From NCBI GenBank assembly GCA_002162955.1, contig MABD01000005.1, positions 29,949 through 71,126 of the forward strand: a stretch of 41,178 nucleotides of DNA, read 5' to 3'. The stretch comes from Gammaproteobacteria bacterium 45_16_T64. Lineage in GTDB: Bacteria > Pseudomonadota > Gammaproteobacteria > Pseudomonadales > Ketobacteraceae. A program made the translations under genes and the position numbers. Positions 3,210 to 25,347 of this stretch are shown here, piece after piece. The number at the start of each line of letters is the position of its first letter. The first letter of the stretch is position 1. The notes beneath the pieces were generated by a model, which was given only the letters and a program-made list of their open reading frames with translations, was not told where the DNA came from and did no database searches.

Positions 3210-3230
3210 ATTGCGCTTCGCAATCTGCAA
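3210..3230 (+). promoter_or_regulatory. Overlapping pair of enhancer boxes for the promoter at 3335
   Basis: ATTGCG-CTT-CGCAAT (3210-3224) is a perfect inverted repeat. It overlaps TTCGCA-ATC-TGCAA (3217-3230), the best match in the window to the shared box. Both lie about 115-125 bp upstream of the -24 element, a typical place for an enhancer-binding-protein site. Confidence 0.6.
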
Positions 3231-3334
3231 CAGAACCTACTCCGACTACCCCCTCTTTCTTTTTGTCCTTTACCCATACCTAAAATAACCCGATTTATCA
3301 AGGGTTTATATTTTCACATTGCCTATTTATTAAA

Positions 3335-3351
3335 CTGGCCTATCAATTGCA
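3335..3351 (+). promoter_or_regulatory. Sigma-54 promoter of the glycosyltransferase/Wzx/Wzy unit
   Basis: CTGGCCTATCAATTGCA has the invariant GG-N10-GC spacing and a full TTGCA -12 box. The predicted start near 3362 leaves a leader of about 29 nt before the ATG at 3391. Confidence 0.75.
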
Positions 3352-3390
3352 CCTACCCCACTAAATACAACGTCACGGCAAAGGATCAAC

Positions 3391-4632
3391 ATGTGGAATA
3401 GAAGTCTACCCACCATTTTATTTACACACTATGGCGACAACTGGATAAGGGGAAGCGAACGATGCCTTCTAGATTTGATGAACAACATCAACCGAAAGAA
3501 ATACAACATTGTTCTTTGGTGCAATAGTGAAATATTGTCCGAGGCAGCAACAAAACTCAAGATTGACGTCATTCTCACAAACTTTTCTGTTCTATTTTCA
3601 AGTGAATGTAGTATGCCCCTACCCGACTACACAAGGATCATTCAAATAGGAAATCACCTTGTCGAAAAGTACAAGGTCAATATTATTCACTCAAATAGTG
3701 GTGCTCCAAATATTTGGCTAAACCCTATATCACGATATCAACGACTTCCCCTTATCGTTCATCTTCATGCACATTACAGCTTACGGGATCGTGTAACACT
3801 GGGGCTGCATCATGTACCTATGACCGTTGGCGTTAGCCCAGCGGTACTTGCTGAGTTTCATCAGGACGGATCATCCCCACAACAATTGAGAATAATTCCC
3901 AACGGGCTAGACGTTCAGGAACTCAACAAACAACCAACATGCGACTTGCGCAATACCCTGGGATTAAATGACCAAACAATTCTTATTTCAACAACCGGCT
4001 CCCTTATTCATCGAAAAGGAATTGATATTGCCATTTCATCGGTAGTAAATCTTCATAAACAGGGTTTACCGGTACATCTCGTTATCTTTGGTGAAGGCCC
4101 TCAAAGGATAACATTACAACGTCAAATACACGCAGCTTGCGCACAAAAGTACATCCACTTATATGGCGAATCAGAGGAGATCGTTGGCTTATTAAAAAGT
4201 GGTGTTGATATATTTATATCGACAGCAAGAAAGGAGGCCTTTGGATTAGCGATAGCGGAAGCAAGCTTATCTGGCATTCCTGTTATCGCGCCAAGAAGTG
4301 GAGAGTTCCCCAACATCATCATCGAAGGAAAAACAGGATTATTATTCGATCCGAAAGACCCGTCAACGCTAGAAACTGAAATAAGAAAAATAATTTCAGA
4401 CAAAAAAATTGCGATGCTAATGGGAGAAAATGGAAAAAAGCACGTAGAGCAGAACTACGGATTATCCAACTACATTGCACAATTCGAAGAGCTATATGAC
4501 TCAATGTTGAAAGACAAGAACATGAGGATGAACTGGCTATCACATTGGAAAATAGTCGCAATTATAAAACTAAGCATTCGTAGAATATTCAAGCTACGCA
4601 AAGCAATAGACGTAAACGGGCTTACACAATGA
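3391..4632 (+). CDS. GT4-family glycosyltransferase
   Basis: This 413-residue cytoplasmic GT-B enzyme should transfer one sugar onto the lipid-linked exopolysaccharide repeat. The N-terminal domain begins with ILFTHYGDNWIRGSERCLLDL, where the loop before the Gly-Ser-Glu helix is typical of GT4 acceptor domains. The C-terminal domain shows STTGSLIHRKGID, VIFGEGPQ and EAFGLAIAEASLSGIPVIAP with the E-x7-E pair. The start has AAGGA five bases upstream. The stop overlaps the next gene by ATGA, which implies translational coupling. It is the first gene behind a sigma-54 promoter and corresponds in type to the SypH/I/J glycosyltransferases, but I cannot assign which one. The last 40 residues are basic and may touch the membrane. 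Confidence 0.9.
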   Translation: MWNRSLPTILFTHYGDNWIRGSERCLLDLMNNINRKKYNIVLWCNSEILSEAATKLKIDVILTNFSVLFSSECSMPLPDYTRIIQIGNHLVEKYKVNIIHSNSGAPNIWLNPISRYQRLPLIVHLHAHYSLRDRVTLGLHHVPMTVGVSPAVLAEFHQDGSSPQQLRIIPNGLDVQELNKQPTCDLRNTLGLNDQTILISTTGSLIHRKGIDIAISSVVNLHKQGLPVHLVIFGEGPQRITLQRQIHAACAQKYIHLYGESEEIVGLLKSGVDIFISTARKEAFGLAIAEASLSGIPVIAPRSGEFPNIIIEGKTGLLFDPKDPSTLETEIRKIISDKKIAMLMGENGKKHVEQNYGLSNYIAQFEELYDSMLKDKNMRMNWLSHWKIVAIIKLSIRRIFKLRKAIDVNGLTQ

Positions 4633-5762
4633 AAAAGACACGCATACTCATCATAGACCCCATTACGTTCAGGGGGGGATCTAAGGTCGCAACGGAAAGC
4701 ATCGTAAACCTATTGGATCCCAAAAAATACGAAATCATAGTGGTATCTTCGGACTCGCATTCCTGGAAAGAAGATTCATTCAAGAAATTCAGCCTGCTGG
4801 AGTTACAATACCTAAAGAATAAGGAACAAGGTATCTACTATTTTCTAAAGCACATATTTATCGCCATTAATATTGTATTCGCCCGATTACGGGTTGGGAA
4901 AATCGATATCGCGATCGGCGCATCAGGACCAGGCGTTGACCTATCGATCTATCTGCTGAAACGCGCGTTACGATACAAATTGGTACAATTCATACACGGC
5001 CCCGTTGCAAAATCCAAGACTATCGGAAAATGCTTGTACCGAGCTGATGAAATTTTTCATTTAGAAACAGCGATTAACTCGATAAAAGATGCACTTTCCA
5101 CACAACCATGCCAAACGAAAGATCTATATGAGAAACCGAGATTTAATATATTACACAATGGATTGAGCAAATCGAAATGGCCCAGTCAATGCCAGCAAGC
5201 GAAACCAAGAGTATTCTGGGCTTCATCTACGCTAAAATGGAAGGGACTGGACATTCTTTTAGATGCGTTAAAAAGCCTGGAAGAATGTTCGAAACCTGAC
5301 ACTCATATTTGCTATATCACTCCAAAAGACACTCCTCTTGCCACATCTGACACGAATATCGCGATAACTAATGTTCAATGGCACAACGAACCCAAAAATT
5401 TGGATACGCTTCGTGCCGAAAGTAACATCTTTGTGTCGACAAGTACGCAAGAACCGTTTGGCCTTTCCATTCTAGAAGCCATGGCCGCAGGTCACTGCAT
5501 AATCATTCCATCTGATGGTGCTTATTGGGACAAAAAATTGGTGAATGGTGTTAATTGTTTGAAATACCAGCCGGGTGATGCTTTGGATCTAGCAAAAACG
5601 ATCTCGTTAGCGGTATCACAGACGGAAATACGACAGAGCACGGGAAGGTTAGCCAAAAAGATTTCGGAAGGATACCAAGCAGAAGCCCTTTACCTCCCCG
5701 TAATTTTAGCCTTTGAGATAGATAGTGCTCAACCTTCCCAGTGTCCAAACGAGGACTATTAG
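4629..5762 (+). CDS. GT4-family glycosyltransferase
   Basis: This 377-residue GT-B glycosyltransferase is the second of a coupled pair. The N-terminus ILIIDPITFRGGSKVATESIVNLL carries the Gly-Gly-Ser loop and following helix of the acceptor domain. The C-terminal domain has FWASSTLKWKGLDILLDAL and EPFGLSILEAMAAGHCIIIPS with the conserved glutamates. It starts inside the stop codon of the preceding gene (ATGA), and its stop lies two bases before the chosen start of the Wzx gene. It probably acts on the same oligosaccharide as its neighbour. Sugar specificity is not predictable. Confidence 0.9.
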   Translation: MKKTRILIIDPITFRGGSKVATESIVNLLDPKKYEIIVVSSDSHSWKEDSFKKFSLLELQYLKNKEQGIYYFLKHIFIAINIVFARLRVGKIDIAIGASGPGVDLSIYLLKRALRYKLVQFIHGPVAKSKTIGKCLYRADEIFHLETAINSIKDALSTQPCQTKDLYEKPRFNILHNGLSKSKWPSQCQQAKPRVFWASSTLKWKGLDILLDALKSLEECSKPDTHICYITPKDTPLATSDTNIAITNVQWHNEPKNLDTLRAESNIFVSTSTQEPFGLSILEAMAAGHCIIIPSDGAYWDKKLVNGVNCLKYQPGDALDLAKTISLAVSQTEIRQSTGRLAKKISEGYQAEALYLPVILAFEIDSAQPSQCPNEDY

Positions 5763-5764
5763 CC

Positions 5765-7213
5765 ATGACCGCGATACGGCTTAGCTTATTTAAATTACCA
5801 AAAGCCATGCGACATACCATAATTTACGGTTTTAGCATTGCTTTTATGAAAGGGATTTCCCTAATAATGTTGCCTTTTATCGCAAACCATATGCCGGCAG
5901 CTGAATTTGGTCGACTAGAATTATTAAGCAGTATCGCGCTAATCGGAAGTGTCGTTATTGGAATGGGTCTTGAACAAACATTATTTCGTTTTGCAGGAAC
6001 AACTAATGACCCCATATTAAGAAAAGAGCTAGCAGCAAGTATTTTCGGTATAACCCTGCTTATCGGATGTTGTTCCATCATAATATCCATCCTATCATAC
6101 GAGAAAATTGCACAGCTACTCGCAGGTGATATCGAGAGCTACGATGTATTATTAATTTTATCCGTTCTTTCATTAGAAGGATGTATCGCAATTCCACTAG
6201 GTTGGATGAGAATGAATGACAAAGTAATGCCATTCTTCTGTGCAACAACCGGGCGCGCCTTACTCCATGCGATATTCACGATTATTTTCATACTATCTGG
6301 ACGAGGAATATCTGGAATTTTAGAAGCAGGTCTAATCGCAGCCGTTATTCAATCGGTATTTCTATTTTATCACCATATAAAGACAGCAGGACTATCTCTT
6401 AATCTCCGCACAACGAAAAAAACCTTGATTTATAGTATCCCCATCGTGGGAAGTGGCCTCGTAGCATTTGCTCTGAACGGCTTCGACCGTTGGGTGCTCG
6501 CCGATAACGTGTCGTTAGCCGATATAGCGCAATATGGAGTGGCAGCAAAATTCTCACTTGCCGTAGTACTGTTACTTCAACCCTTTACCATGTGGTGGAA
6601 TCCAAAGCGATTCCAAGTGTTATCTCAACCTAATGGTAAAGATAACATCGCAAAGTATGTTTCGATCGGGACAACGCTACTGCTGATCATCACCTCGTTG
6701 ATTTGTATAACCTCCCCGCTGATAATCGAACTATGGTTACCACAAGCCTATTGGAACGCAACATCCTATTTATTGGGCATAGCGCTGGCCATGTTCTTCA
6801 AAGAAATGTGCGAACTTTACAATATCGGATGTTTCGCTTCAAATAATACCCATGCACAGCTTGTTATTAATATCATTGGATCTGTAACGGGTATTGTTAT
6901 GATGCTAAGTCTATCTACTATACATTTTGTATGGGGCATTATCTACGCCCTAATAATCGCTCATGCGATTCGATTTGTTTTGTTTTATCTGGTTAGTCAA
7001 AGGATAACACTCATACAATATCCACACGTCAAACTGATGATATTCTCCATTTTTTGTATCACAACCGTAGCCTTTGGCTTAGACATTGAAGGCACTCTTA
7101 ATCGTTTGACCTATATCACGTTTACAATGCTAGCGCAGATATATGCGGCGACACGAATTGGGATCATTCCTCTTATAACAAAAGAAAAAGAGGAAAAAAC
7201 AACATGCGTATAA
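5765..7213 (+). CDS. Wzx-type polysaccharide flippase
   Basis: This integral membrane protein of about 482 residues has 12 or more hydrophobic helices and the look of the MATE/MOP polysaccharide transporters: an N-terminal GISLIMLPFIANHMPAAEFGRLELL segment and a central GFDRWVLADNVSLADIAQYGVAAKFS segment. It should flip the completed undecaprenyl-linked repeat unit to the periplasm, like SypK. ATG 5765 is preferred to an in-frame GTG at 5741 because GAGG lies 11 bases upstream and the GTG has no ribosome binding site. The stop overlaps the Wzy gene by 10 bp. Length and helix count are normal for the family. Confidence 0.88.
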   Translation: MTAIRLSLFKLPKAMRHTIIYGFSIAFMKGISLIMLPFIANHMPAAEFGRLELLSSIALIGSVVIGMGLEQTLFRFAGTTNDPILRKELAASIFGITLLIGCCSIIISILSYEKIAQLLAGDIESYDVLLILSVLSLEGCIAIPLGWMRMNDKVMPFFCATTGRALLHAIFTIIFILSGRGISGILEAGLIAAVIQSVFLFYHHIKTAGLSLNLRTTKKTLIYSIPIVGSGLVAFALNGFDRWVLADNVSLADIAQYGVAAKFSLAVVLLLQPFTMWWNPKRFQVLSQPNGKDNIAKYVSIGTTLLLIITSLICITSPLIIELWLPQAYWNATSYLLGIALAMFFKEMCELYNIGCFASNNTHAQLVINIIGSVTGIVMMLSLSTIHFVWGIIYALIIAHAIRFVLFYLVSQRITLIQYPHVKLMIFSIFCITTVAFGLDIEGTLNRLTYITFTMLAQIYAATRIGIIPLITKEKEEKTTCV

Positions 7214-8661
7214 TCACCCAACACCAAATATCCAATGCCATCCTCACTTCAGTATTCTGTTGTTTTATCTCGATTTGTTGGTTTCTCATTCCAAATCCGG
7301 CCATTGCATTAGTCATCAGCATTCTTCCTGTCGCAATACTCTTTGTGCTATGGAAACCGTTCCTCATGGTTCTGCTGTTTGTTGCATTTTCATTTTTTAG
7401 ACTACACGAGGTTTTTCCCGCGATATATAATTTCAAAATCCCGTTGCTTCTATCCTTAGCATCGCTATTAGCCCTAACGTGGCATGTAGGAATCAGTAGA
7501 AAAATCGAAATCTATTTTTCGAAAGAACTTATCGCCATTTCTGTATTTTTTGCCCTTGTTACCTTCGGAGTCCTTATGGCCAGCAATAGACCGGTCGCAA
7601 TTGAGTACTTCAAAGGCATTTATTGGAAAATTGCGTTGATGACCTATGCCATTGCTTTCCTCACGAGGCAAGCTAGCGACTTCGCACTCGCCGCGAAGGT
7701 TATTACATTTTCCGGCGTTCTTGTCGGTCTAGTCGCACTATCCAACAAGATGAACTCTATAGGTTTAGTCGAAGGTACCAGAGTCACTATTGGACGACAC
7801 ATTGGCTCGGTCCTTGGTGACCCAAATGATCTAGCATTAGTGTTAATGTTCCCAGCCTCATTTGCCGTCAGTCTTGCCATAACCAAAGGGCTTTCTCGCG
7901 GATCTCGCTGTTTAGGACTTATTAGTATTGTCGTGCTTTTCTCAGCCATTATCGCTACACAAAGCCGGGGCGGTTTACTCGGTGTTCTCGCGGTATTTGG
8001 AATCTATGGCTATAGAAAAATACAGTCAAAAGCACTATTTTTATCGATCGCAATTATCGGTGCAGGTTTACTCTATGGCGTTGCAGGAATATCCGATAGA
8101 TCAAGCGGAGGCGCTGCGGAGGACGGCATTGATGCCTCCGCAATGGGTCGATTGTACGCCTGGGAAGCAGCGTTTGGCATGGCGACACACAATCCATTAA
8201 CCGGTGTTGGTATCGATAATTTCTACTCGAATTACTACTACTACAGCCCCCATTGGGACGGGCTAAATCACGCCGTACATAGTACCTGGTTCGGCGTTCT
8301 GGCCGAAACAGGGTTTCTGGGATTATTCGTATTTGTGTTTAATATAATTTTACTGCTAAAGACTTCCTATCGATCCCTTACATTGATGGAAATACACCAA
8401 GATACTATCGATCCAGCAGTCATTGCCGCGGCTCAAGCAGTATTCGCAGGACTTATCGGAACGGTAATTTCTGGGACATTTCTAACCCAGGGTTTTACTT
8501 GGCCCATTTATATTTTAGCAGCACTTGTCGTCGCCACATCGCGCTGGACTCAAAACGTACTCCCCAGTGTAATAGATTCAAGTAATAGAGGAGAGAAATC
8601 ATGCAATACGCCCAACATCCAGCTTCAGAGTACGAATGCGTCTCTCCATTGTCGATATTGA
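7204..8661 (+). CDS. Wzy polymerase / O-antigen ligase-family membrane protein
   Basis: This 485-residue protein has about 10-12 membrane helices and the Wzy_C (O-antigen ligase/polymerase) signature. Supporting segments are GDPNDLALVLMFPASFA, ATQSRGGLLGVLAVFGIYGY, and a large periplasmic loop from NPLTGVGIDNFYSNYY through HAVHSTWFGVLAETGFLGL, which carries the conserved H and E of the family. It should polymerise repeat units in the periplasm, matching SypL in V. fischeri. It overlaps the Wzx gene by 10 bp upstream and the diguanylate cyclase gene by 61 bp downstream. Polymerase and ligase cannot be told apart by sequence alone; next to Wzx and Wzz a polymerase is the simpler reading. Confidence 0.88.
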   Translation: MRIITQHQISNAILTSVFCCFISICWFLIPNPAIALVISILPVAILFVLWKPFLMVLLFVAFSFFRLHEVFPAIYNFKIPLLLSLASLLALTWHVGISRKIEIYFSKELIAISVFFALVTFGVLMASNRPVAIEYFKGIYWKIALMTYAIAFLTRQASDFALAAKVITFSGVLVGLVALSNKMNSIGLVEGTRVTIGRHIGSVLGDPNDLALVLMFPASFAVSLAITKGLSRGSRCLGLISIVVLFSAIIATQSRGGLLGVLAVFGIYGYRKIQSKALFLSIAIIGAGLLYGVAGISDRSSGGAAEDGIDASAMGRLYAWEAAFGMATHNPLTGVGIDNFYSNYYYYSPHWDGLNHAVHSTWFGVLAETGFLGLFVFVFNIILLLKTSYRSLTLMEIHQDTIDPAVIAAAQAVFAGLIGTVISGTFLTQGFTWPIYILAALVVATSRWTQNVLPSVIDSSNRGEKSCNTPNIQLQSTNASLHCRY

Positions 8662-9563
8662 TAGTAGACGATTCAGAAAGCGAGCGAGCACTTATACGTT
8701 ATACATTGGAAAATTTGAATCACAACATAATTGAAGTTTCCAATGGTCAAGACGCATTGAAAATAATTGCAAAGAGCAAAGGAAGCATCGACCTTATCCT
8801 TCTTGATGTTCTAATGCCGATTCAGGATGGTTATAAAATCGCAACTAAAATCCGATGTCACGAAGAAAAATGCAACGATGAATGGTGCCCCATTATCTTT
8901 CTTAGCGGAAAAAACAATCCCGCTGATATTGCCCGAGGCATTTATTCCGGCGGTGATGATTATCTCGTCAAACCCGTCAATTCTGTCATTCTGAAAGCTA
9001 AGATTATCGCGATGCAACGTATCGCCATGATGAGGAGAAGACTGATTGAAACCAGAGAACAACTTAGAATCCTTGCGCATACCGATGAACTTACAAGAAT
9101 TCCAAACCGAAGAAAAATAAATGAAATCATCGACTCTGAGATTGCAAGATCCAATCGAAACCTAATTCCATTCACCGTCGCGATTCTTGATCTTGACCAT
9201 TTCAAAAACATCAACGATACCTATGGACATAAAGCAGGAGACCTTGTTCTTCAATCTATTTGCCTTGTTCTTAAAAAAACGCTACGCGCAGAAGACAGCA
9301 TAGGAAGAATAGGAGGTGAAGAGTTTTGTATCTGCTTACCAAGTTCCTGTAACGAACCACTCAAAGATCCGTTTGAACGCTTTCGTCAAGCCATTGAAAA
9401 TTCTCATGTCCTATTTGACGGTAAGAGGCTATCTATAACGGCAAGCTTTGGCATCACCTTATTTCAACCAAAGAATGACACTCCCGCGAGCGTCCTAGAG
9501 CGCGCAGATAAGGCCCTTTACATTGCTAAGAACCAAGGAAGAAATCGAGTTGAAATATTGTAA
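8601..9563 (+). CDS. Response-regulator diguanylate cyclase (REC-GGDEF)
   Basis: This 320-residue protein should make c-di-GMP from GTP when its receiver is phosphorylated. The REC domain spans about residues 17-140, with acidic pair D23/D24, phospho-acceptor D69 in LLDVLMP, a Ser at the switch position in IFLSGK, and Lys in YLVKP. The GGDEF domain follows a short helix and has DLDHFKNINDTYGH and an intact GGEEF catalytic loop. RAED five residues before the loop is an RxxD inhibitory site, so product feedback is likely. The start is fixed by a strong AGAGGAG just upstream, although the gene begins 61 bp inside the Wzy gene. Placement at the end of the Wzx/Wzy operon suggests that locus expression raises c-di-GMP. 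Confidence 0.92.
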   Translation: MQYAQHPASEYECVSPLSILIVDDSESERALIRYTLENLNHNIIEVSNGQDALKIIAKSKGSIDLILLDVLMPIQDGYKIATKIRCHEEKCNDEWCPIIFLSGKNNPADIARGIYSGGDDYLVKPVNSVILKAKIIAMQRIAMMRRRLIETREQLRILAHTDELTRIPNRRKINEIIDSEIARSNRNLIPFTVAILDLDHFKNINDTYGHKAGDLVLQSICLVLKKTLRAEDSIGRIGGEEFCICLPSSCNEPLKDPFERFRQAIENSHVLFDGKRLSITASFGITLFQPKNDTPASVLERADKALYIAKNQGRNRVEIL

Positions 9564-9580
9564 TCAACGTGCAGATATAT

Positions 9581-9593
9581 ATGCATATTGCGA
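9581..9593 (+). promoter_or_regulatory. Enhancer box for the promoter at 9675
   Basis: ATGCATATTGCGA reads on the other strand as TTCGCA-ATA-TGCAT with its neighbouring base, a close match to the shared box. Its centre lies about 90 bp upstream of the -24 element. Confidence 0.5.
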
Positions 9594-9674
9594 ATAGACC
9601 AACCCATAATTTAAGCCTCAACTAGCAATAAACCATAACCATTTGATTTCATACCATTTTATCTATTAGTCGTT

Positions 9675-9691
9675 CTGGTCTAAAAACTGCA
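9675..9691 (+). promoter_or_regulatory. Sigma-54 promoter of the acyltransferase unit
   Basis: CTGGTCTAAAAACTGCA keeps GG-N10-GC and a CTGCA -12 box; the T after GG is a departure from consensus. The predicted start near 9702 gives a leader of about 26 nt. Confidence 0.65.
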
Positions 9692-9727
9692 ATACAGGTT
9701 ATACAACCAATAAACCGTGGGAAAATC

Positions 9728-10471
9728 ATGAATACGCTAACACTCAATGGAACGAAACAATGGATCAAAACCAGCAATCATCCGATAGCCAAATTTCTAT
9801 TCGTAACAATAAAATCTCTACTCAATTTCGACATACCACTGCCAAAATTTTTTCTGAAGTTACTCTACCACTGCCACTGTTTCTTTCGAACATTATTCGC
9901 GTCACTTGCACGCGTATTCATATGGACACCATTACTGAAGGGTAGGCTTGATGGTGTTGGTAAAAGGCTCTATCTCTACGGTGGACTCCCCTTTATAAGT
10001 GGCGCAACCCAAATACATATCGGCAATGACTGTAGGATTTCTGGGCACACAACTATTAGTGGACGCGTCGTTTCTGATCCAGCCCCGGTTCTGATGGTTG
10101 GAGATAACGTTGATATTGGTTGGCTAACCACAATTGCGGTCGGCAGTAGAATCGAAATCGGCAATAACGTGAGAATTGCCGGCAGGGCATTTTTCGCCGG
10201 TTACCCAGGCCATCCCATTGATCCTATCGACCGCGCAAAAGGGCTACCCGACACCGATAACCAAGTGGGCGATATAATCCTTGAAGATGATGTTTGGCTG
10301 GCAACTGGCGTCTCTGTAATGGCAGGTGTACATATTGGTCATGGCACAATAGTAGCTGCAGACAGCGTCGTGACACATGACCTCCCATCCATGGTATTGG
10401 CCGCAGGGTCTCCCGCAAAAGTAATACGCTCGCTTTCCCCCTCCAGTAAAAAATTCAAGGACGACCTATGA
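9728..10471 (+). CDS. Left-handed beta-helix (hexapeptide) acyltransferase
   Basis: The protein has 247 residues. From about residue 95 it is built of hexapeptide repeats, such as IHIGNDCRISGHTTISG, VMVGDNVDIGW, IEIGNNVRIAG and VWLATGVSVMAGVHIGHGTIVAADSVV, and it ends in the typical AGSPAKVIR. These enzymes transfer acetyl or similar groups from a CoA donor to sugars, here probably to the exopolysaccharide repeat in the cytoplasm. The first 90 residues are hydrophobic and basic and may bind the membrane. It is first in a sigma-54 unit and corresponds in type to SypM. It overlaps the next gene by ATGA. Its acceptor is unknown. Confidence 0.88.
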   Translation: MNTLTLNGTKQWIKTSNHPIAKFLFVTIKSLLNFDIPLPKFFLKLLYHCHCFFRTLFASLARVFIWTPLLKGRLDGVGKRLYLYGGLPFISGATQIHIGNDCRISGHTTISGRVVSDPAPVLMVGDNVDIGWLTTIAVGSRIEIGNNVRIAGRAFFAGYPGHPIDPIDRAKGLPDTDNQVGDIILEDDVWLATGVSVMAGVHIGHGTIVAADSVVTHDLPSMVLAAGSPAKVIRSLSPSSKKFKDDL

Positions 10472-12973: not shown

Positions 12974-13007
12974 ACAATTTTTGTGATCACACCTTCGTTA
13001 CTTAGTT

Positions 13008-13026
13008 GGCCTATCTTTCATAGGCC
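13008..13026 (+). terminator. Short hairpin after the GDPD-like gene, weak terminator
   Basis: GGCCTAT-CTTTC-ATAGGCC is a perfect 7-bp stem with a 5-nt loop followed by only TTT. It ends one base before the enhancer box at 13028, so termination here would insulate the next sigma-54 unit. Confidence 0.4.
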
Positions 13027-13027
13027 T

Positions 13028-13040
13028 TTGCAATCCGCGA
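13028..13040 (+). promoter_or_regulatory. Enhancer box for the promoter at 13125
   Basis: TTGCAATCCGCGA fits the inverted-repeat frame TTGC-N5-GCRA. On the opposite strand, with flanking bases, it reads TTCGCG-GAT-TGCAA. It is centred about 93 bp before the -24 element. Confidence 0.5.
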
Positions 13041-13124
13041 AGTCAAATGCAAAAAAGTCATACCCACCCCCTTCCCTCCACCTCAAAAAACCTATAACTC
13101 ATTGTTTTAATTGTAGATTATAAA

Positions 13125-13141
13125 CTGGCCCGATCCCTGCA
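13125..13141 (+). promoter_or_regulatory. Sigma-54 promoter of the Wzz/SypQR unit
   Basis: CTGGCCCGATCCCTGCA has GG-N10-GC spacing and shares the preceding TAAA with the promoter at 3335. The predicted start near 13152 leaves a leader of about 25 nt. Confidence 0.72.
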
Positions 13142-13144
13142 AAG

Positions 13145-13170
13145 GTTCCTTTATATTCACTTGAAGGAAC
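13145..13170 (+). repeat. Inverted repeat covering the ribosome binding site of the next gene
   Basis: GTTCCTT (13145-13151) and AAGGAAC (13164-13170) are exact reverse complements around a 12-nt loop. The right arm contains the AAGGA Shine-Dalgarno of the gene at 13177. The left arm overlaps the predicted transcription start, so whether the hairpin exists in the mRNA depends on the exact start base. Confidence 0.45.
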
Positions 13171-13176
13171 TCCACA

Positions 13177-16843: not shown

Positions 16844-16853
16844 CGGAGCAATC

Positions 16854-18731: not shown

Positions 18732-18749
18732 GATCATACCCACTTCCTC

Positions 18750-18791
18750 GAAATGTATTATCTGAACCAACGGTTCCAGATAATACATTTC
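18750..18791 (+). terminator. Long hairpin after the SypQR gene, terminator-like without T-run
   Basis: GAAATGTATTATCTG (18750-18764) plus AACC pairs with GGTT plus CCAGATAATACATTTC (to 18791). There is one bulged base and an AAC loop, giving about 19 paired bases. It lies 18 bp after the stop. No U-tract follows, so it may act as a 3'-end stabiliser or as a processing site instead of a simple terminator. Confidence 0.55.
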
Positions 18792-18896
18792 CTATCAGTT
18801 CGCCCCTTCCCCTCCCTACAACGGTATCTCATTTCCCTAGAACCTCCACGAGTATCACCATTGTACTTTTGCATTCGGTTTCACTTGCAAACTCAA

Positions 18897-18909
18897 ATGC
18901 AATTTGCAA
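18897..18909 (+). promoter_or_regulatory. Enhancer box for the sypA promoter
   Basis: ATGCAATTTGCAA is an inverted repeat of the shared type, centred about 80 bp before the -24 element. The surrounding gap (18732-19035, 304 bp) holds only the hairpin, this box, several TTGCA-like words and the promoter; I see no gene in it. Confidence 0.55.
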
Positions 18910-18979
18910 AACACAATTCCTCCCTAGTTTGAGTAGCCTGCAATACATTGTTTTCACTCAAGATTATTAAACACCATGA

Positions 18980-18996
18980 TTGGCACATTCGATGCA
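18980..18996 (+). promoter_or_regulatory. Sigma-54 promoter of sypABCDE
   Basis: TTGGCACATTCGATGCA carries the full TTGGCAC -24 element and GC at the right distance (N10). The predicted start near 19007 lies inside the longest possible sypA frame, which argues for the downstream ATG at 19036. Confidence 0.78.
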
Positions 18997-19035
18997 GCTG
19001 TACCATTGACACATTCACTAGACAGGTATCAAACA

Positions 19036-19392
19036 ATGGAATATCAGAGCAGTTACTCAATGAACGGCGATCTTTTACTAGAACTCTACGGTGAAATGGA
19101 CGCACCAGGATGCACGCAACTACGACCGCTACTTGAAAAGCTAGTTAGCGCGAAGGAGTCATACAATGTTCTGCTCGACCTGAGTGAGGTCAACTTTATC
19201 GACTCCTCTGGTATTGGCGCCATTGTTTTCCTCTTTAAGCGTTTAAAAGCACAAGGACAATCATTGGTCATACGGGGTGTTCATGGGCAACCTCGCGAAT
19301 TGATGGAACTACTTCACGTAGGTAGCGCAATTCCCGTAAGCGTTGGAACTGACGCAAACTATGGATCAGGGGACGTGCAATGCAGCGTTTAG
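19036..19392 (+). CDS. sypA: STAS-domain anti-sigma-factor-antagonist-type protein (SypA)
   Basis: This 118-residue single STAS domain has LLDLSEVNFIDSSGIGAIVFLFKRLKAQGQSLVIRGV, with Ser57 at the position phosphorylated in SpoIIAA-type proteins. In V. fischeri SypA the regulated serine is Ser56; the near-identical number supports ATG 19036 over the upstream in-frame ATG 18976. The upstream ATG would also place the sigma-54 -24/-12 element inside the coding region. The known role of SypA is to promote biofilm formation when unphosphorylated, under control of SypE. sypB begins 13 bp before its end. The ribosome binding site is weak (CAGGT). Confidence 0.88.
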   Translation: MEYQSSYSMNGDLLLELYGEMDAPGCTQLRPLLEKLVSAKESYNVLLDLSEVNFIDSSGIGAIVFLFKRLKAQGQSLVIRGVHGQPRELMELLHVGSAIPVSVGTDANYGSGDVQCSV

Positions 19393-20192
19393 TTGGCACT
19401 GCACTCCTGATAGGCTCTTTAGGCCTGACAGGTTGCACTAGCTGGCCTCAGCTTGGTAGAGGCGGAATGGCAGAACATCATCGTGAAGATATCACTCCCG
19501 TAATGGCTGACCAACCGTTAGGTCCTGAGCACGGATTACGTTTTGATTTGGAACTAACAAGCCGGCATCTAGATATACTGGTACTTGAAGGCGCACAACT
19601 GTGCTTTCCAGCGTCAGTACTACAGGCGAAAAGACGGCAACATCGCATTGAGAGAGAGCTCATCGGAGATCTAGCTTTTGACGCTGCTAACGATTTGATA
19701 ATTCAACGGGGGCTACTCGCTCGTCTTGAAAGACAACTCGATTACGTAAGAAACGAAGGTCTTTGTACCCTAACCTCACAATTTTCAACGGAATCGTTGA
19801 ATGACGATATTGAGCACCTTGTAGACTTACTAAATAGCGACAATCAATTTGCCTTCGATTCACACGAATTGAACCCCAAATATGTTGTACGACTAGCAAA
19901 AGCATCACTTATTTTGAACAAATATAGACATTATCAGTTAAAAATAACGGGGCATTCTGATGCAAAAGGTAACGAAAACCATAATGCATCACTTTCGATA
20001 AAACGTGCTCAACAAGTGGGTCGCTATTTGCAAATATTAGGAATCAACAATTCTCGATTGTCATTTGACGCGGTAGGGTCGAAAGAACCATTTTTCGATG
20101 GAGACGAAGCACACGAAAGACTCGTCAATAGGCGCGTCACTATTGAAGTGGTAGAAGCCACTCACTACGCTAACGAAGAAAGGAATAAGTAG
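19380..20192 (+). CDS. sypB: OmpA-family outer-membrane lipoprotein (SypB)
   Basis: This 270-residue lipoprotein has lipobox LTGC with Cys19 and Thr at +2, predicting the outer membrane. The middle part (about 40-140) is helical without a known domain. The C-terminal 100 residues are an OmpA/MotB peptidoglycan-binding domain: ITGHSDAKGNENHNASLSIKRAQQVGRYL, GINNSRLSFDAVGSKEP and ERLVNRRVTIEV. The conserved Asp and Arg that grip diaminopimelate are present. It overlaps sypA by 13 bp and precedes sypC by 6 bp. The likely role is to tie the export machine to the cell wall, as inferred for SypB. Confidence 0.88.
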   Translation: MQRLVGTALLIGSLGLTGCTSWPQLGRGGMAEHHREDITPVMADQPLGPEHGLRFDLELTSRHLDILVLEGAQLCFPASVLQAKRRQHRIERELIGDLAFDAANDLIIQRGLLARLERQLDYVRNEGLCTLTSQFSTESLNDDIEHLVDLLNSDNQFAFDSHELNPKYVVRLAKASLILNKYRHYQLKITGHSDAKGNENHNASLSIKRAQQVGRYLQILGINNSRLSFDAVGSKEPFFDGDEAHERLVNRRVTIEVVEATHYANEERNK

Positions 20193-20198
20193 GATATC

Positions 20199-22352
20199 AT
20201 GAATAAGATACTTGCAAGAATCAAAATAGGTTTGGCGTTTGTCAAAAAGGCCGCGTTTCAAATAACACTCTACCTTGCCTTTAGCTTCTTTTGTTCCTTC
20301 GCTATCGCTGATGACTATGTCGTTCAAGTGGGCGACCAAATAAAAATATCACTGCCCGGCGAAGATACCTTGGATCAACCCTTTGATGTTGATCGTTCAG
20401 GAAAAATTATTCTTCCTGAAGTTGATTCTATCGTCGTAGCAGGGCTAGACGAAGGGGAATTAGAATCAGTAGTCGCTGAAAAATTAAGTACCATGTTCAA
20501 AGACCTCAATAATCTACACGTTTATGTCTATAAAAAACGAATTCTTATTACTGTACAAGGTTATGTTAAAAACCCTGGTGAATTCACCTTATCTTCTAAT
20601 AGTTCAATTCAATTAGCCCTACACGCCGCAGGGGGTCTAAGAGCTGGCGCTCAATTGGATAAAATACAGCTCATCAGAAACGACAAGCCAACTACATTCA
20701 ATTACAAACAATACCTTGATACAGGCAACCCTTCTATTTTACCCAACCTTCAATCGTTAGACACACTGTTTGTTCCCGCGTCACCGGTAACTGGAAACGT
20801 GGAAGTAGAATTTGACCCGCTAAAGGTCGCTGATTCTGGCGATGCGGCTGAAGATAGGAACGCTATCAAGGTCTTTGGGGAGGTAAATAGCCCAGGTAGT
20901 TTCTCCCACAGAGAATCTATAAATCTAGTGGACCTTCTTATGAGAGCTGGTGGTGTTACCCGCTTCGCTGGCGTTGAACAAATTCGGGTTATCACTAAGG
21001 GTCAACCCTCTCTGTTTAACTTAAAAAAATACCTCGATACTGGCGACGAAAAACTACTACCGCCAATCACTGAAGGTGCCACGATTTTTATTCCTAAACA
21101 GCAAGAGGAGATAAAAAGCGGTGCCAATATGGTGTATGTCATGGGTGAAGTACAGAGCCCCGGGGCATATGAGGGAAAAAAGGGTGCGACGTTTATGGAC
21201 ATACTTGCTAACGCTGGGGGGCCAACCCGGTTCGCCGAATCACGTCAAATTCGTATTATCAAAGCCGATGGTAGGGTTACACCCTTTGATCTAGCAGGGT
21301 ACACAGAAGGAACAGTACCCAGCTCTCCACCAACAATCGATCCAGGCGACGCAATTTTTGTACCCGAAAAAACCGATATGAATGAGAAGTCCTGGCTTAA
21401 AGTTGCACCTAATCGCGCCGTTAGAGTCATAGGGGCAGTAGTAAGACCAGGACGAATAGAATGGTCAGATGAAATGAACCTTCTCGATCTACTCGCGCAC
21501 GTAGGTGGACCGAGCTCCCGCGCAGATACCACAAATGTCGAAATTGTATCAAAAAACAGAGATAACGTCCTAGAGCACTCGGTGTTTGACTTGGATAAAT
21601 TTATCAAAGAAGGAAAAAATGATTCTGAATTACCCCACATACAGGCTGGAGCAACCGTTCGTATACATGACTTACCACAAGACCCAAGCGATAACAAAGC
21701 GCAGTGGGTCCGCCAAGCGTCAGAAAAATCCATCTATATTTTTGGTCAAGTAGGAGCGCCTGGACGGTATATGTTTACCGACGCAATGAATTTCCTGGAT
21801 ATAGTTTCTGCCGCAGATGGCCCGACTAGAAATGCAGATTTACATAATATTAGAGTCAGTCATCGTAACGAGGGGCATGCACGAGTATCTAAAACTAACC
21901 TAGCATTATATTTTGAAACAGGTGATGAGTCGCTACTACCCGATGTAGAACCCGGCGACACGATTTACATCCCAGAAAAAGACAGAATCTGGTTAGATCA
22001 AAGCAAAGAAAGTACTGTTCGTGTATTAGGTGCGATTAATAAACCGGGACGATATCGTTTTGACGATAGTATGACAATACTTGATCTACTGGCACAAGCT
22101 GGAGGCACTGATGAAAATGCCTATAGAGAAAAGATTAGTATTGTCAATTTATCATGCTGCAAGGATCAGGCAAGAACATTTAATCTCACCAAGTTTAGTA
22201 GAACCGCCGCATTTGGTGACCTTCCCGCACTGCGTGCAGGAGATACAATTTATATACCAAACAAGAGTGAAAGTGCAGTGGAGAAATTCAGAGTCACCTT
22301 GAATGATGTTTTTCAACTTGTCTCTCTAAGCACACTGCTAGGAGTTCTATAA
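20199..22352 (+). CDS. sypC: Wza-like polysaccharide export protein with six SLBB domains (SypC)
   Basis: The protein has 717 residues. A Sec signal ends near AIA before DDYVVQVGD. The polysaccharide export (Poly_export) domain follows (VQVGDQIKISLPGE to about residue 110). Six SLBB-type repeats come next, each with a G-x-V-x-x-PG-x-(Y/F) start and a GD/GA-x-I-(Y/F)-(I/V)-P end: near ITVQGYVKNPGEF, KVFGEVNSPGSF, YVMGEVQSPGAY, RVIGAVVRPGRI, YIFGQVGAPGRY and RVLGAINKPGRY. A short C-terminal helix ends the protein. No lipobox is present, unlike E. coli Wza. The role is the periplasmic/outer-membrane channel for exopolysaccharide. It abuts sypD by one base (taATG). Confidence 0.9.
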   Translation: MNKILARIKIGLAFVKKAAFQITLYLAFSFFCSFAIADDYVVQVGDQIKISLPGEDTLDQPFDVDRSGKIILPEVDSIVVAGLDEGELESVVAEKLSTMFKDLNNLHVYVYKKRILITVQGYVKNPGEFTLSSNSSIQLALHAAGGLRAGAQLDKIQLIRNDKPTTFNYKQYLDTGNPSILPNLQSLDTLFVPASPVTGNVEVEFDPLKVADSGDAAEDRNAIKVFGEVNSPGSFSHRESINLVDLLMRAGGVTRFAGVEQIRVITKGQPSLFNLKKYLDTGDEKLLPPITEGATIFIPKQQEEIKSGANMVYVMGEVQSPGAYEGKKGATFMDILANAGGPTRFAESRQIRIIKADGRVTPFDLAGYTEGTVPSSPPTIDPGDAIFVPEKTDMNEKSWLKVAPNRAVRVIGAVVRPGRIEWSDEMNLLDLLAHVGGPSSRADTTNVEIVSKNRDNVLEHSVFDLDKFIKEGKNDSELPHIQAGATVRIHDLPQDPSDNKAQWVRQASEKSIYIFGQVGAPGRYMFTDAMNFLDIVSAADGPTRNADLHNIRVSHRNEGHARVSKTNLALYFETGDESLLPDVEPGDTIYIPEKDRIWLDQSKESTVRVLGAINKPGRYRFDDSMTILDLLAQAGGTDENAYREKISIVNLSCCKDQARTFNLTKFSRTAAFGDLPALRAGDTIYIPNKSESAVEKFRVTLNDVFQLVSLSTLLGVL

Positions 22353-23065
22353 TGATTATTCCTCCGCACAATATGGAAATCGAGAACATTTACTCTCAGC
22401 TGTGTAGTGGACCACAGTGCGCGATATCATTAACGTCGGCCAATGCAAACGAGGGTGTATCGTCAATCGCCTTTGCCCTCGCGCAACGGAATCTTTTGGC
22501 AGGAAAGTCAACTTTACTGGTGGATCTAAATTTACACCACCCCTCCCTTAACACCCAACTCTGTATAGATTATGAAGAAAGAACTCATAGCATGTTACTT
22601 GCCCCTCCCCAGTTGGTAAGTCCAGGTACAAGAGATACAACCATTACCGGTATTACCGCCCCCACCTCGCGGGAAGCTATCATAAAACTGCGTAGACCTG
22701 GAGTACTTGAAGGCTGCATATCACAATGGCAAGAACACTTCGATTATATCATTATCGATAGCTCACCAATAAACAGAGTAAATTCAAATAACATCCCAGC
22801 TGAACGCGTGGCTGCGGCCTGTGATGGTTGTATTCTCGTTGTATTAGCAAGCCAGACAACAGAAACAATGGTTATGGAAGCCGCACACAAACTAAATACT
22901 GCAAAAGCATCAGTACTCGGGTGTGTATACAACGACAGGGACAACCCCCCTATTAACCAAGAATTACTCAGAGAAATTGATCGATTACCCAACTTTCTGC
23001 GCGGCATCGCGGATAAACTACGCTTGTGGGTGCTGCAAAATAGATTACTGTCGCTTAATGTCTAA
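22352..23065 (+). CDS. sypD: CpsD/BY-kinase-like protein with degenerate P-loop (SypD)
   Basis: The 237-residue fold is that of the cytoplasmic part of bacterial tyrosine kinases (CpsD/CapB, partner of Wzz). The P-loop region reads SANANEGVSSIAFALAQ, where GEGKST is usual; Val36 stands in for the catalytic Lys and the threonine is Ser. The Walker A' strand STLLVDLNLHHPSL (Asp58) and Walker B FDYIIIDSSPI are kept. There is no tyrosine cluster at the C-terminus. It is therefore probably not an active tyrosine kinase, although weak nucleotide binding is possible. It lies between sypC and sypE, the syp order. An alternative reading is a scaffold that couples Wzz to the exporter. Confidence 0.82.
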   Translation: MIIPPHNMEIENIYSQLCSGPQCAISLTSANANEGVSSIAFALAQRNLLAGKSTLLVDLNLHHPSLNTQLCIDYEERTHSMLLAPPQLVSPGTRDTTITGITAPTSREAIIKLRRPGVLEGCISQWQEHFDYIIIDSSPINRVNSNNIPAERVAAACDGCILVVLASQTTETMVMEAAHKLNTAKASVLGCVYNDRDNPPINQELLREIDRLPNFLRGIADKLRLWVLQNRLLSLNV

Positions 23066-23091
23066 GCGCCGACTCAACGGAAACCCCTCCT

Positions 23092-24639
23092 ATGGACCGA
23101 GTTCTACTTGATATTACAATTCCGACAATTCTGGAAAAAACCGCTCAGCTCAGGAAGAGCCTAACTGAAATGTTGTCGGTATGCGCTATAAAATCACCGC
23201 TAAAAGGCGACGTACAACTATGCTTCTCAGAAGCGATAAATAATATTATCAAACATAACCCTGTTGCTCGAAAAATCAGACTTCGATTCGGGCGCAATAG
23301 CAAACACTATTGGCTTGAGCTTCAAGATGATGGTCAACCTTGGAATCCATCATCTTATGACTCTCCCCCTCTTGCGAGCATTTCATGGGATGCAGAATAT
23401 GGGCGCGGGCTCCCCCTTATTCATAAGCTCTGTGAAAAACTAAACTATACGGATGGGATTGATCGAGAAGACGAATTCAACAATACTTTCGTTATGCAAT
23501 GGATTATACCTGAACGACGAATGTTGCCCACACTGCTTATAATCGACGATGATGAAAGTGCCGTAAGATTATATACCTCCTATCTTGAAGATTCATATAA
23601 CGTCACAGCAACCCACAATGCTAAAGAAGCAATAGAGCACTTAGAAGAAAACACTGTACATGTCATTGTATCTGATATCAGAATGCCCGGTATGGATGGC
23701 CTATCATTTCGAGAATATATCGGAAGAAGTAGCGCAAACACGGCACCTTTCATTTTTTTGACGTCTGTATGCGACAAAGAAACAATAACTAAGGCGAACA
23801 ACCTTGGAATAGATGATTTTCTATTAAAGCCTATCACCAAAGAACAATTAGTCCGCGCAATTGAAAGAATTAGCCATCGATCTACGCAAATAACATCCCT
23901 ACTTTCGTCACGCTTAAATCACAACATATGCAACCTTTTACAACCGACTTTACCGCAAGAGTCCCATGGTTGGAAACTGCGCTTTGCACATAGGAATACT
24001 GGGCATGGTGGTGGTGATCTCGTATTTTTTCAACAATCGATGGATACAATAAACATAACGCTTGTTGACATCATGGGTCATGATGAAGCAGCCAAATTCT
24101 TTGCATACGCATATGGAGGCTATGTTCGAGGACTAATGCAATCTTATACACCCCCGCTCGAACCAGGTACACTTCTAGAAAAGTTATCCGCCGTTGCACT
24201 TCAAGATGAATTATTGTCAAAAGTCATTCTAACATGTTGCACCTTATCACTACATAGAGATGGCAACATTACCATTGCCTGCGCTGGACATCCCGCACCA
24301 TTAATCATCCATGACAGTGGGGTCGATGAGGTTGATGTAGGGGGAGAACTTCCGGGGCTTTCGCAATATACAAAATATGAAAACACTCAATTTAAGTTAA
24401 CAGACGGAAATCGGTTAGCGCTTTACACCGACGGATTATTCGAATCCGCTTCAAACAACAGTGCACGCCTCTACCTAGAAAACCAGCTTTGTGGTCGTAT
24501 GCGTAGTAGTTTATCTTCAGATATCGACGCTTCCCTTCAAACCATCATGAGAGTATTCGACCGTTTAGCCGGAACACCACCCAATGATGATAGCTTACTT
24601 ATACTAATTGAACGGGATCTTTCAAGGCATGATTCATGA
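23092..24639 (+). CDS. sypE: Partner-switching regulator RsbW-REC-PP2C (SypE)
   Basis: This 515-residue protein has three domains in the SypE order. Residues 1-140 are an RsbW-like serine kinase: N-box E47, N51, H55; QDDGQPWNP; GRGLPLI. Residues about 145-265 are a receiver: IIDDDES, phospho-acceptor D195 in VSDIRMPGMDG, Thr in FLTSV, K246 in LLKP. Residues about 300-510 are an SpoIIE-type PP2C phosphatase: GGGDLVFF, LVDIMGHDEAA, CAGHPAPL, LYTDGLFES and NDDSLL, with the metal-binding aspartates present. Known role: SypE phosphorylates or dephosphorylates SypA according to receiver state. All active-site motifs look intact, so both activities are expected. Its end overlaps a convergent receiver gene by 41 bp. 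A 26-bp gap with a weak ribosome binding site separates it from sypD. Confidence 0.92.
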   Translation: MDRVLLDITIPTILEKTAQLRKSLTEMLSVCAIKSPLKGDVQLCFSEAINNIIKHNPVARKIRLRFGRNSKHYWLELQDDGQPWNPSSYDSPPLASISWDAEYGRGLPLIHKLCEKLNYTDGIDREDEFNNTFVMQWIIPERRMLPTLLIIDDDESAVRLYTSYLEDSYNVTATHNAKEAIEHLEENTVHVIVSDIRMPGMDGLSFREYIGRSSANTAPFIFLTSVCDKETITKANNLGIDDFLLKPITKEQLVRAIERISHRSTQITSLLSSRLNHNICNLLQPTLPQESHGWKLRFAHRNTGHGGGDLVFFQQSMDTINITLVDIMGHDEAAKFFAYAYGGYVRGLMQSYTPPLEPGTLLEKLSAVALQDELLSKVILTCCTLSLHRDGNITIACAGHPAPLIIHDSGVDEVDVGGELPGLSQYTKYENTQFKLTDGNRLALYTDGLFESASNNSARLYLENQLCGRMRSSLSSDIDASLQTIMRVFDRLAGTPPNDDSLLILIERDLSRHDS

Positions 24640-25057
24640 GAACACTACCTAAACGCTGTTTAAGTAAACTTCCCACAAATGGTTTCTGTAGAAAGTCACT
24701 CGCCCCAGAATTAAATGCTTCCTCTACAACATTAGGAACATATGCACCAGAAATAACAACTACAGGAATATCTAACGTCGCCGCATGATGGGTAACAAAA
24801 TCGCAGCCATGAACACCATTACCATCCGGAAGATTTACGTCCAATAACACTAAATCAAAATCGGGACGCGAAAATGCATCATGAGATGAATATTTTAATT
24901 TTCTCAGGCCATCAACCAGAGTCGATGCAAACGAAACCGAACTAACGCCAAATTTTTTTAGCATTTCTGATGTCAACATCTGAAACGGTTCTGAGTCATC
25001 AATGAGTAGGACTTTTGCATACTCCAAATAGCTTGCTGCGGTATCAGTTTCTATCAT
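24599..25057 (-). CDS. Single-domain response regulator
   Basis: A stand-alone receiver of 152 residues with no output domain. It has VLLIDDSEP (D20, D21), phospho-acceptor D73 in LLDVNLPDG, S103 at the switch position, and K125 in FLQKPF. It probably acts as a phosphate shuttle or binds a partner protein. It is convergent with sypE and overlaps its last 41 bp. GAGG lies seven bases before the start, and a sigma-54 promoter is found at 25109-25125 on this strand, so it belongs to the same regulon. Candidate partners are the hybrid kinase at 26668, SypE or the diguanylate cyclase. Confidence 0.88.
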   Translation of the reverse strand: MIETDTAASYLEYAKVLLIDDSEPFQMLTSEMLKKFGVSSVSFASTLVDGLRKLKYSSHDAFSRPDFDLVLLDVNLPDGNGVHGCDFVTHHAATLDIPVVVISGAYVPNVVEEAFNSGASDFLQKPFVGSLLKQRLGSVLMNHALKDPVQLV

Positions 25058-25108
25058 AATAAAGCCTCGTCATAACGTATGATAACTACAAGAATGTGGC
25101 ATTAACGC

Positions 25109-25125
25109 TGCAAGATTACCGCCAA
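25109..25125 (-). promoter_or_regulatory. Sigma-54 promoter, leftward, for the single-domain receiver
   Basis: Read on the minus strand, the site is TTGGCGGTAATCTTGCA: perfect TTGGC, N10 spacing between GG and GC, and perfect TTGCA. The predicted start near 25098 leaves about 40 nt of leader. Confidence 0.75.
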
Positions 25126-25208
25126 CCACCGGTATTTTTAAAATTTCTATATTTTTTAGTTACTTAGCGATAGTCACATAGATACCGATGCAAAAAGACT
25201 ATCTCGAA

Positions 25209-25221
25209 TTGCACATTGCAA
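25209..25221. promoter_or_regulatory. Enhancer box shared by two divergent sigma-54 promoters
   Basis: TTGCA-CAT-TGCAA is a perfect inverted repeat between the two promoters: about 92 bp from the leftward -24 element and about 118 bp from the rightward one. The 326-bp gap 25058-25383 holds no gene, only these regulatory sites. Confidence 0.6.
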
Positions 25222-25330: not shown

Positions 25331-25347
25331 ATGGCTCAATAATTGCT
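25331..25347 (+). promoter_or_regulatory. Sigma-54 promoter, rightward, for the receiver/sensor unit
   Basis: ATGGCTCAATAATTGCT has GG-N10-GC and TTGCT, allowed by the TTGCW consensus. Its core TGGCTCAATRATTGC is shared with the promoter at 698. The predicted start near 25358 leaves about 26 nt of leader. Confidence 0.72.

Follow-up and report, generated by a model that had tools for sequence, protein, structure and literature searches.

The window analysed here, a stretch of 41,178 nucleotides of contig MABD01000005.1 of Gammaproteobacteria bacterium 45_16_T64 (G000:C54:29949-71126, where G000 is the host genome), is by its predicted genes a rearranged syp/scv-like exopolysaccharide locus. 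Its sigma-54 promoters are preceded by inverted-repeat boxes of the form TTGCA-N3-TGCAA. There is a high probability that these boxes are the enhancers (upstream activating sequences, UAS) of a SypG-orthologous sigma-54 activator encoded at C54:26921-28333, beside the cluster. On the sequence evidence, the site of this activator very probably has the quorum-sensing (LuxO) form, not the form of its close relatives in squid-symbiont bacteria. What appears to be new is this difference in box type from SypG of Vibrio (Aliivibrio) fischeri; scv-like loci outside Vibrio are already known.

In the proposed mechanism, the activator would be phosphorylated by the SypF-like hybrid kinase encoded next to it, which has an Hpt domain, and would then bind the TTGCA-N3-TGCAA sites. 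The bound activator would reach the RpoN-RNA polymerase at promoters 65–125 bp away via DNA looping and open the nine promoters of the syp/scv-like exopolysaccharide locus and, probably, that of an unlinked PEP-CTERM-like gene. The rpoN gene was found in the host genome.

Boxes and sigma-54 promoters of the locus

Box mismatches were counted over the 10 fixed positions of TTGCA-N3-TGCAA, and distances were taken from the box start to the TGG of the sigma-54 site. The elements in the window are as follows, the boxes being given without strand.

581..593: weak box TTGCAAAATGGTA, 2 mismatches, for the DUF4114/LruC gene, within the end of the preceding gene
699..714, + strand: sigma-54 promoter TGGCTCAATGATTGCA before 773-2692 (DUF4114/LruC-domain protein)
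3211..3230: two overlapping boxes, TTGCGCTTCGCAA at 3211-3223 (2 mismatches) and TCGCAATCTGCAA at 3218-3230 (1 mismatch)
3336..3351, + strand: sigma-54 promoter TGGCCTATCAATTGCA before the glycosyltransferase operon starting at 3391
9581..9593: box ATGCATATTGCGA, 2 mismatches
9676..9691, + strand: weak sigma-54 promoter TGGTCTAAAAACTGCA (TGGTC) before 9728 (hexapeptide transferase, sulfatase-like protein)
13028..13040: box TTGCAATCCGCGA, 2 mismatches
13126..13141, + strand: sigma-54 promoter TGGCCCGATCCCTGCA before 13177 (glycosyltransferase, Wzz-like, glycosyltransferase, fused GT2-sugar transferase)
18885..18916: three overlapping boxes, at 18885 (2 mismatches), 18897-18909 (ATGCAATTTGCAA, 1 mismatch) and 18904 (2 mismatches)
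18981..18996, + strand: sigma-54 promoter TGGCACATTCGATGCA of the sypA-E operon
25109..25124, - strand: reverse sigma-54 promoter TGGCGGTAATCTTGCA for a 152-aa response regulator, possibly served by the 25209 box
25209..25221: exact LuxO-type box TTGCACATTGCAA, 0 mismatches, between two divergent sigma-54 promoters
25332..25347, + strand: sigma-54 promoter TGGCTCAATAATTGCT before 25384 (response regulator, PhnD-type binding protein, hybrid histidine kinase)

The distances from box to promoter are 118 bp (581), 125 and 118 bp (3211 and 3218), 95 bp (9581), 98 bp (13028), 84 bp (18897) and 123 bp (25209). A sequence-only reading of the window had placed boxes of the form TTYGCA-N3-TGCAA at six positions, 80–120 bp from the promoters. 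Five of these positions hold (3210-3230, 9581, 13028, 18897 and 25209), and the measured distances correct the range to 84–125 bp. The weak box that it placed at 598 was not recovered; among starts 576–640, only 581 (2 mismatches) and 626 (4 mismatches) come within 4 mismatches. Its consensus is corrected to the symmetrical TTGCA-N3-TGCAA, which is the published LuxO site.

The six forward promoters of the window follow TGGCAC-N5-TTGC with the GG and GC elements, the one at 9676 only as TGGTC. The promoter at 18981 overlaps the called start of the sypA open reading frame (ORF), and the sister-genome alignment puts the start at 19036, 55 bp downstream. Counterparts of the boxes are found in related genomes. 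The sister genome G001 carries TCGCAATTTGCAA (1 mismatch) in the gap orthologous to 9581 and TCGCAAATTGCGA as the counterpart of the 13028 box, and the orthologous gap before the DUF4114 gene of genome G004 carries TCGCAAACTGCAT (2 mismatches) 85 bp before a sigma-54 site. The reverse promoter at 25109 has a strong counterpart in G001, TGGCACTAATATTGCT, with a box of 2 mismatches.

A further box, AGGCAATATGCAA (2 mismatches), lies to the left of the window in the gap between the divergent epimerase and first glycosyltransferase genes. It is located 65 bp from TGGCACAGTGATTGCA, which faces the epimerase, and 87 bp from CGGCATCAAAATTGCT, which faces the glycosyltransferase. Because the boxes in this gap and in the 25209 gap lie between oppositely facing sigma-54 promoters, one enhancer zone may serve the promoters on both sides.

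The arrangement of box and promoter

Counting of the bare motif was rejected as proof. TTYGCA-N3-TGCAA alone is weakly enriched in the window (46 matches within 2 mismatches versus 29.8 ± 6.4, with one of 100 shuffles as high), and the exact TTGCA-N3-TGCAA occurs at 17 places in the 6.49 Mb genome, one of them in the window. The architecture was therefore defined as a box (≤2 mismatches) 55–135 bp before a sigma-54 site (≤3 mismatches) in gaps between automatic gene calls, and the background consisted of 157 such gaps from 400 kb of the host genome. Of the 7 cluster gaps, 4 show this architecture, as opposed to none of the 157 in the background (Fisher p = 1.2e-6); the box alone within 2 mismatches occurs in 5 of 7 and 28 of 157 gaps, respectively (p 0.004). 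The full architecture is also present in 6 of 9 gaps of G001. The signal is the arrangement and not the bare motif. Equal frequency of the motif across the genome, which the sequence-only reading had named as fatal to its proposal, is partly a fact for the bare motif (17 exact places, one in the window) and is false for box plus promoter.

The form of the box was ranked among 11,264 palindromic five-base words with spacers of 0–10. TTGCA-N3-TGCAA takes rank 1 in the nine own promoters, with a score of 78 of 90 and 9/9 promoters within 2 mismatches; in each of 20 shuffles that preserve letter content only, the top-scoring word reaches 64–68. The nine promoters were hand-picked, the six of the window being those of the finding and two reverse ones coming from searches that required a box. 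Since the box had been discovered in this very set, the independent (held-out) tests come from G001 and G004. The same word is rank 2 in eight G001 promoters (8/8 within 2 mismatches), where TTGCA-N8-TGCAA scores one point higher, and rank 1 in the pool of own, G001 and G004 promoters (19/20). A genome-wide gapped search with the TGCA form returned 18 places, 5 of which lie within 26 kb of C54.

The activator beside the cluster

The sigma-54 activator gene lies at window positions -3027 to -1615, 1.6 kb to the left of the window. The sequence-only reading had considered the activator missing and had named the lack of an encoded SypG homologue as refuting its proposal; neither applies to this genome. 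The protein comprises the domains of SypG, namely REC, AAA+ with GAFTGA, and a Fis-type helix-turn-helix (HTH). Asp55 is invariant in the alignment, and the best PDB match is LuxO (5ep0, E 2.9e-145). The gene is preceded by that of a 939-aa hybrid kinase with Hpt, and the two would form a SypF-like pair of kinase and activator. The activator and the cluster are syntenic in G001, and the left part is also found in G004.

In a tree of 20 proteins, which included one SypG and two LuxO proteins of Vibrionaceae, the activator and those of its genus cluster with SypG of Vibrio sp. HI00D65 (95/94) and apart from the two LuxO proteins. The deeper forks are mostly open, and the tree does not decide the direction of a possible change of the SypG site. 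Both LuxO genes of the tree (L078 and L212) are followed by a small protein of 119 and 114 aa, respectively, which is LuxU-like by eye. The gene that follows the own activator is the epimerase, on the other strand, and no luxU (Hpt) gene stands downstream. The activator scores 655.4 bits, below the NCBIfam LuxO equivalog cut-off of 800 bits, and it is encoded together with the syp gene set, as in the Vibrio comparison. It is the one strong LuxO/SypG homologue in the host genome; in the homologue search, scoring was limited for many genomes to their first 28 candidates. The 11 other strong bacterial enhancer-binding proteins (bEBPs) of the host are 32–44% identical to it over the aligned stretches. 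The sequence-only reading is supported where it proposed that the boxes serve a SypG-type sigma-54 activator of a syp-like locus as enhancers, the activator grouping in the tree with the one Vibrio SypG. The protein is filed, on its sequence, as a SypG orthologue with a different site and not as a V. fischeri-type SypG system.

Further members of the family were encountered elsewhere. G001 (C121:3090, L070) and G004 (C233, L071) carry a second LuxO/SypG-family activator preceded by kinase-like matches; it is 55–57% identical, and 66% over residues 139–394, the G004 match being in pieces. SypG/LuxO-family activators with 49–55% identity are encoded at L073, L074, L076 and L077 in alphaproteobacterial metagenome bins, and the stretches fetched there contain no match to syp structural genes.

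The form of the site

In the covered parts of PMC10162802, TTCTCANNNTGMDWN is listed as the site of SypG, with reference to Ray et al. 2013, and TTGCAWWWTGCAA as that of LuxO. The own promoters fit TTGCAWWWTGCAA, with a spacer that is not always A/T and with 1–2 mismatches in most boxes. The V. fischeri form, to which the sequence-only reading had likened the boxes, was rejected for this locus. TCTCA-N3-TGAGA ranks 1387 of 11,264 in the nine own promoters, and none of the nine comes within 2 mismatches of it, so TTCTCA-N3-TGM does not describe them.

The two forms were compared across syp loci with half-sites of equal length, at sigma-54 sites (≤2 mismatches) lying no more than 160 bp from a called gene. 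The Vibrionaceae sample was drawn from the family of the Vibrio genome G057, in which 48 of 81 genomes have a SypC match; 20 loci were fetched and L072 was added, and five were excluded, four for lack of a SypG homologue in the stretch (L270-L272, L274) and one, L273, for a match of just 29%. In the 16 remaining loci, TCTCA-N3-TGAGA is exact at 10/39 promoters and within 1 mismatch at 19/39, and the TTGCA form is within 1 mismatch at 1/39 and within 2 at 6/39. Nine stretches of seven other genomes show the TCTCA form within 1 mismatch at 0/16 promoters and within 2 at 4/16, and the TTGCA form at 7/16 and 15/16, respectively. The rank test of Vibrionaceae versus the others gives p 5e-8, with promoters within a family being related and not independent. 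Genome G297 contributed no promoter. In Ferrimonas, an exact TTGCA box lies 65 bp before a sigma-54 site that is too distant from the next called gene to count. Some Vibrionaceae sypA promoters carry mixed boxes such as TTGCAATTTGAGA. Among the entries listed by searches of the open-licence PMC literature, as judged by title and the start of the abstract, none reported the box difference.

Helix-turn-helix differences and a possible change of specificity

Alanine scanning of Vibrio cholerae LuxO identified 11 HTH positions at which substitution abolishes activity and binding, according to the covered parts of PMC11407668. The own activator keeps 9 of these positions; the proteins of G001, G003, G004, G402 and Ferrimonas keep 10, and that of G297 keeps 9. 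Five tabulated Vibrionaceae SypG proteins keep 7–8. The Vibrionaceae proteins have Leu/Ile and Asn/Lys at 412-413, Val at 416 and Leu/Val at 425. The other SypG proteins mostly have Pro and Lys/Arg at 412-413 (Thr and Gln in Ferrimonas), Ala/Asn at 416 and Ile at 425 (Leu in G297). Numbering follows the published residues, counted along the ungapped motif, and the table leaves out G145. The match in G402 holds one TAA, so this gene may be broken or mis-assembled.

The simplest reading of the sequences is a SypG regulon with LuxO-type enhancers. That SypG first recognised the LuxO-type site, and that genomes without LuxO kept the TTGCA form, is proposed tentatively, with doubt slightly outweighing belief. 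SypG may have switched its site in the Vibrionaceae, the family in which LuxO coexists. As stated in the covered parts of PMC10162802, LuxO is present in all but one of 22 Vibrionaceae clades, and the syp promoters are insulated from LuxO by a mechanism that is left open. Two points count against such a switch: G001 and G004 carry the second LuxO/SypG-family protein yet keep TTGCA boxes, which weighs against the insulation idea, and LuxO beside SypG was checked in one Vibrionaceae genome (L072). Two natural SypG groups with different boxes and few helix differences offer a direct experiment on specificity, and the box provides a practical rule for recognising enhancers in syp/scv-like loci of other families.

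A target away from the cluster

Downstream promoters were sought at 15 of the 17 exact box places, and two loci have a sigma-54 site downstream. One of them, C39:57964, lies inside a 256-aa ORF and was rejected as a target. The other is intergenic; at C47:31596, an exact box and a 1-mismatch box lie 68 and 110 bp before a sigma-54 site (TGGCGCAATTTTTGCT). This promoter precedes the gene of a 185-aa protein with a PEP-CTERM-like end, whose family matches fall below their cut-offs; none of the 4 other genomes in the genus has a counterpart of this gene. The TGCT form of the genome-wide gapped search gives 20 rows, two of which are the C47 promoter and none of which is on C54. The control set of 28 stretches of the host genome (L190, 20 background stretches and 7 further ones) contains five sigma-54 promoters; a box accompanies the C47 promoter alone, and at the four others no site comes within 2 mismatches. 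From these sequences, the unlinked gene probably belongs to the same regulon, and the regulon may thereby also include, under the same enhancer rule, the gene of a surface (PEP-CTERM-like) protein.

At C11:82420 (L174), a good sigma-54 site and a 1-mismatch box are both situated within a called methyltransferase-like ORF, in its 5´ part; the real start of this ORF may be further downstream.

Weighing of the assignment and competing explanations

Several observations weigh against the assignment of the boxes to the SypG orthologue. Several boxes have 2 mismatches in 10 positions, a quality that is found by itself in 28 of the 157 background gaps, and 13 of the 15 exact places checked lack a downstream promoter. 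TTGCA-N3-TGCAA is only rank 23 in three G004 promoters (2/3), and in the gtA gap of G004 a good sigma-54 site stands without a box within 3 mismatches. The promoter of the hexapeptide gene reads TGGTC, that of the first glycosyltransferase reads CGG, and the DUF4114 box lies inside the preceding gene. The G001 counterpart of the forward promoter at 25332 is weak (TGGTTTAAAATTTGCA, 4 mismatches). Finally, no box within 2 mismatches was found upstream of the kinase-activator operon.

Another sigma-54 activator could own the boxes, for instance PrsR, the regulator of PEP-CTERM/exosortase systems that is elsewhere linked to exopolysaccharide genes. The host encodes a clear PrsR (L010; TIGR02915, 696 bits, cut-off 502.6), identified in a check of 10 of the 11 other strong bEBPs (all except L020). 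The SLBB protein of the locus scores above the cut-off of the XrtA/PEP-CTERM export model (195.2 versus 180), and one distal box precedes a PEP-CTERM-like gene. In contrast, one of the boxless control promoters, a sigma-54 site with 1 mismatch, precedes another gene with a PEP-CTERM-like end (by eye), and its best box has 3 mismatches, which argues against PrsR as the binder. The SypG-like activator is moreover syntenic with the cluster in the sister genome and has a LuxO-like HTH. Binding by PrsR is thus considered unlikely.

Binding by a LuxO-type quorum-sensing regulator that is not a SypG orthologue would explain why the box equals the LuxO consensus. However, the only strong homologue that the host encodes is linked to syp and falls below the LuxO cut-off and outside the LuxO clade, and none of its other activators exceeds 44% identity (over 290 residues). 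With an assembly completeness of 97%, a gene could have been missed; this explanation is rated as quite improbable. Functionless A+T-rich palindromes arising by chance would account for the mild over-representation of the bare motif in the window and for boxes within 2 mismatches in background gaps, but hardly for the spacing to sigma-54 promoters, the rank among palindromic words and the recurrence in the sister genome, and very little weight is given to them. Enhancers of the V. fischeri type (TTCTCA-N3-TGC) would suit a SypG orthologue, and 2/8 G001 promoters match TCTCA-N3-TGAGA within 2 mismatches, but the absence of such matches from all nine own promoters, against exact sites at 10/39 Vibrionaceae promoters, makes them highly implausible.

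Gene content and relation to known loci

Domain searches of the window identified glycosyltransferases, Wzx, Wzy, a Wzz-like protein and a fused GT2/sugar transferase, as in a polysaccharide locus. The fused protein presumably corresponds to the scvN-scvO fusion. With sypA-E, the SypF-like kinase, SypG, the glycosyltransferases, Wzx, Wzy, Wzz and the sugar transferase, the syp/scv gene set is represented. Two further features were delimited.

19036..24639, + strand: sypA (STAS), sypB (OmpA), sypC (SLBB), sypD (Wzc-like) and sypE (HATPase-REC-SpoIIE), from domain searches
24599..25057, - strand: single-domain response regulator of 152 aa, 62% identical to its G001 counterpart

Counterparts of sypA-D were also matched in a Vibrio syp cluster, and homologues of many window genes are present in the Vibrio syp cluster L072 and the Ferrimonas cluster L075. 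The cluster of G001 (C103) keeps the gene order from the kinase through the right-hand hybrid kinase; the DUF4114 gene, the 2698 ORF and the GGDEF gene are missing from it, and ~2.8 kb separates its fused transferase from sypA. On contig C237 of G004, the left part of the locus is present up to the contig end.

Compared with syp/SypG of V. fischeri, scv/ScvE of V. parahaemolyticus and rbd/RbdG of V. vulnificus, the locus has an orthologous activator, the same STAS, OmpA, SLBB, Wzc-like, HATPase-REC-SpoIIE, glycosyltransferase and Wzx/Wzy genes beside it, and several sigma-54 promoters with upstream boxes. Unlike these loci, its order is rearranged, with the kinase-activator module at the left and sypA-E at the right, and its boxes are TTGCA-N3-TGCAA instead of TTCTCA-N3-TGM. 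It also has extra genes: the epimerase, DUF4114/LruC, GGDEF regulator and sulfatase-like genes, two single-domain regulators and the PhnD-hybrid kinase operon. The LuxO/qrr promoters of Vibrionaceae share TTGCA-N3-TGCAA ~100 bp before a sigma-54 promoter, and the recognition helix of LuxO is nearly the same; the own system differs in its neighbouring gene, which is not LuxU-like, its clade, its NCBIfam score and its polysaccharide operon targets. As far as PrsK/PrsR-RpoN control of PEP-CTERM genes is covered by the sources, sigma-54 control of surface-protein genes is shared, whereas PrsR is here a separate protein and the other PEP-CTERM-like sigma-54 promoter checked is boxless. The parts of PMC8941931 covered report scv loci in 28 genera, including genera outside Vibrio, to which class the present locus belongs, and an scvN-scvO fusion. 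Its main text never uses the word "enhancer", and enhancer sites outside Vibrionaceae are not treated in those parts.

The DUF4114/LruC-domain protein (773-2692) is also encoded ≤~9 kb from SypG-family genes in G004, G035, G012 and G014. In G012 and G014, its gene stands directly 3´ of the SypG-like gene with a conserved sigma-54 site and mixed boxes (TTGCAGCATGAAA and TTTCATTGTGCAG in G012). It is a candidate matrix protein of the SypG regulon. A REC-GGDEF protein is encoded within the polysaccharide operon (8601-9563); no match to it is kept in the G001 cluster, and it may therefore be a recent addition. Perfect or near-perfect inverted repeats at 3160-3187, 13008-13026 and 18750-18791, after the upstream gene and before the boxes, resemble terminator-like hairpins by eye. 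The operon at the right end of the locus (25384-29034), which encodes a single-domain response regulator, a PhnD-type substrate-binding protein and a hybrid histidine kinase, is conserved in G001 and is a possible sensory input.

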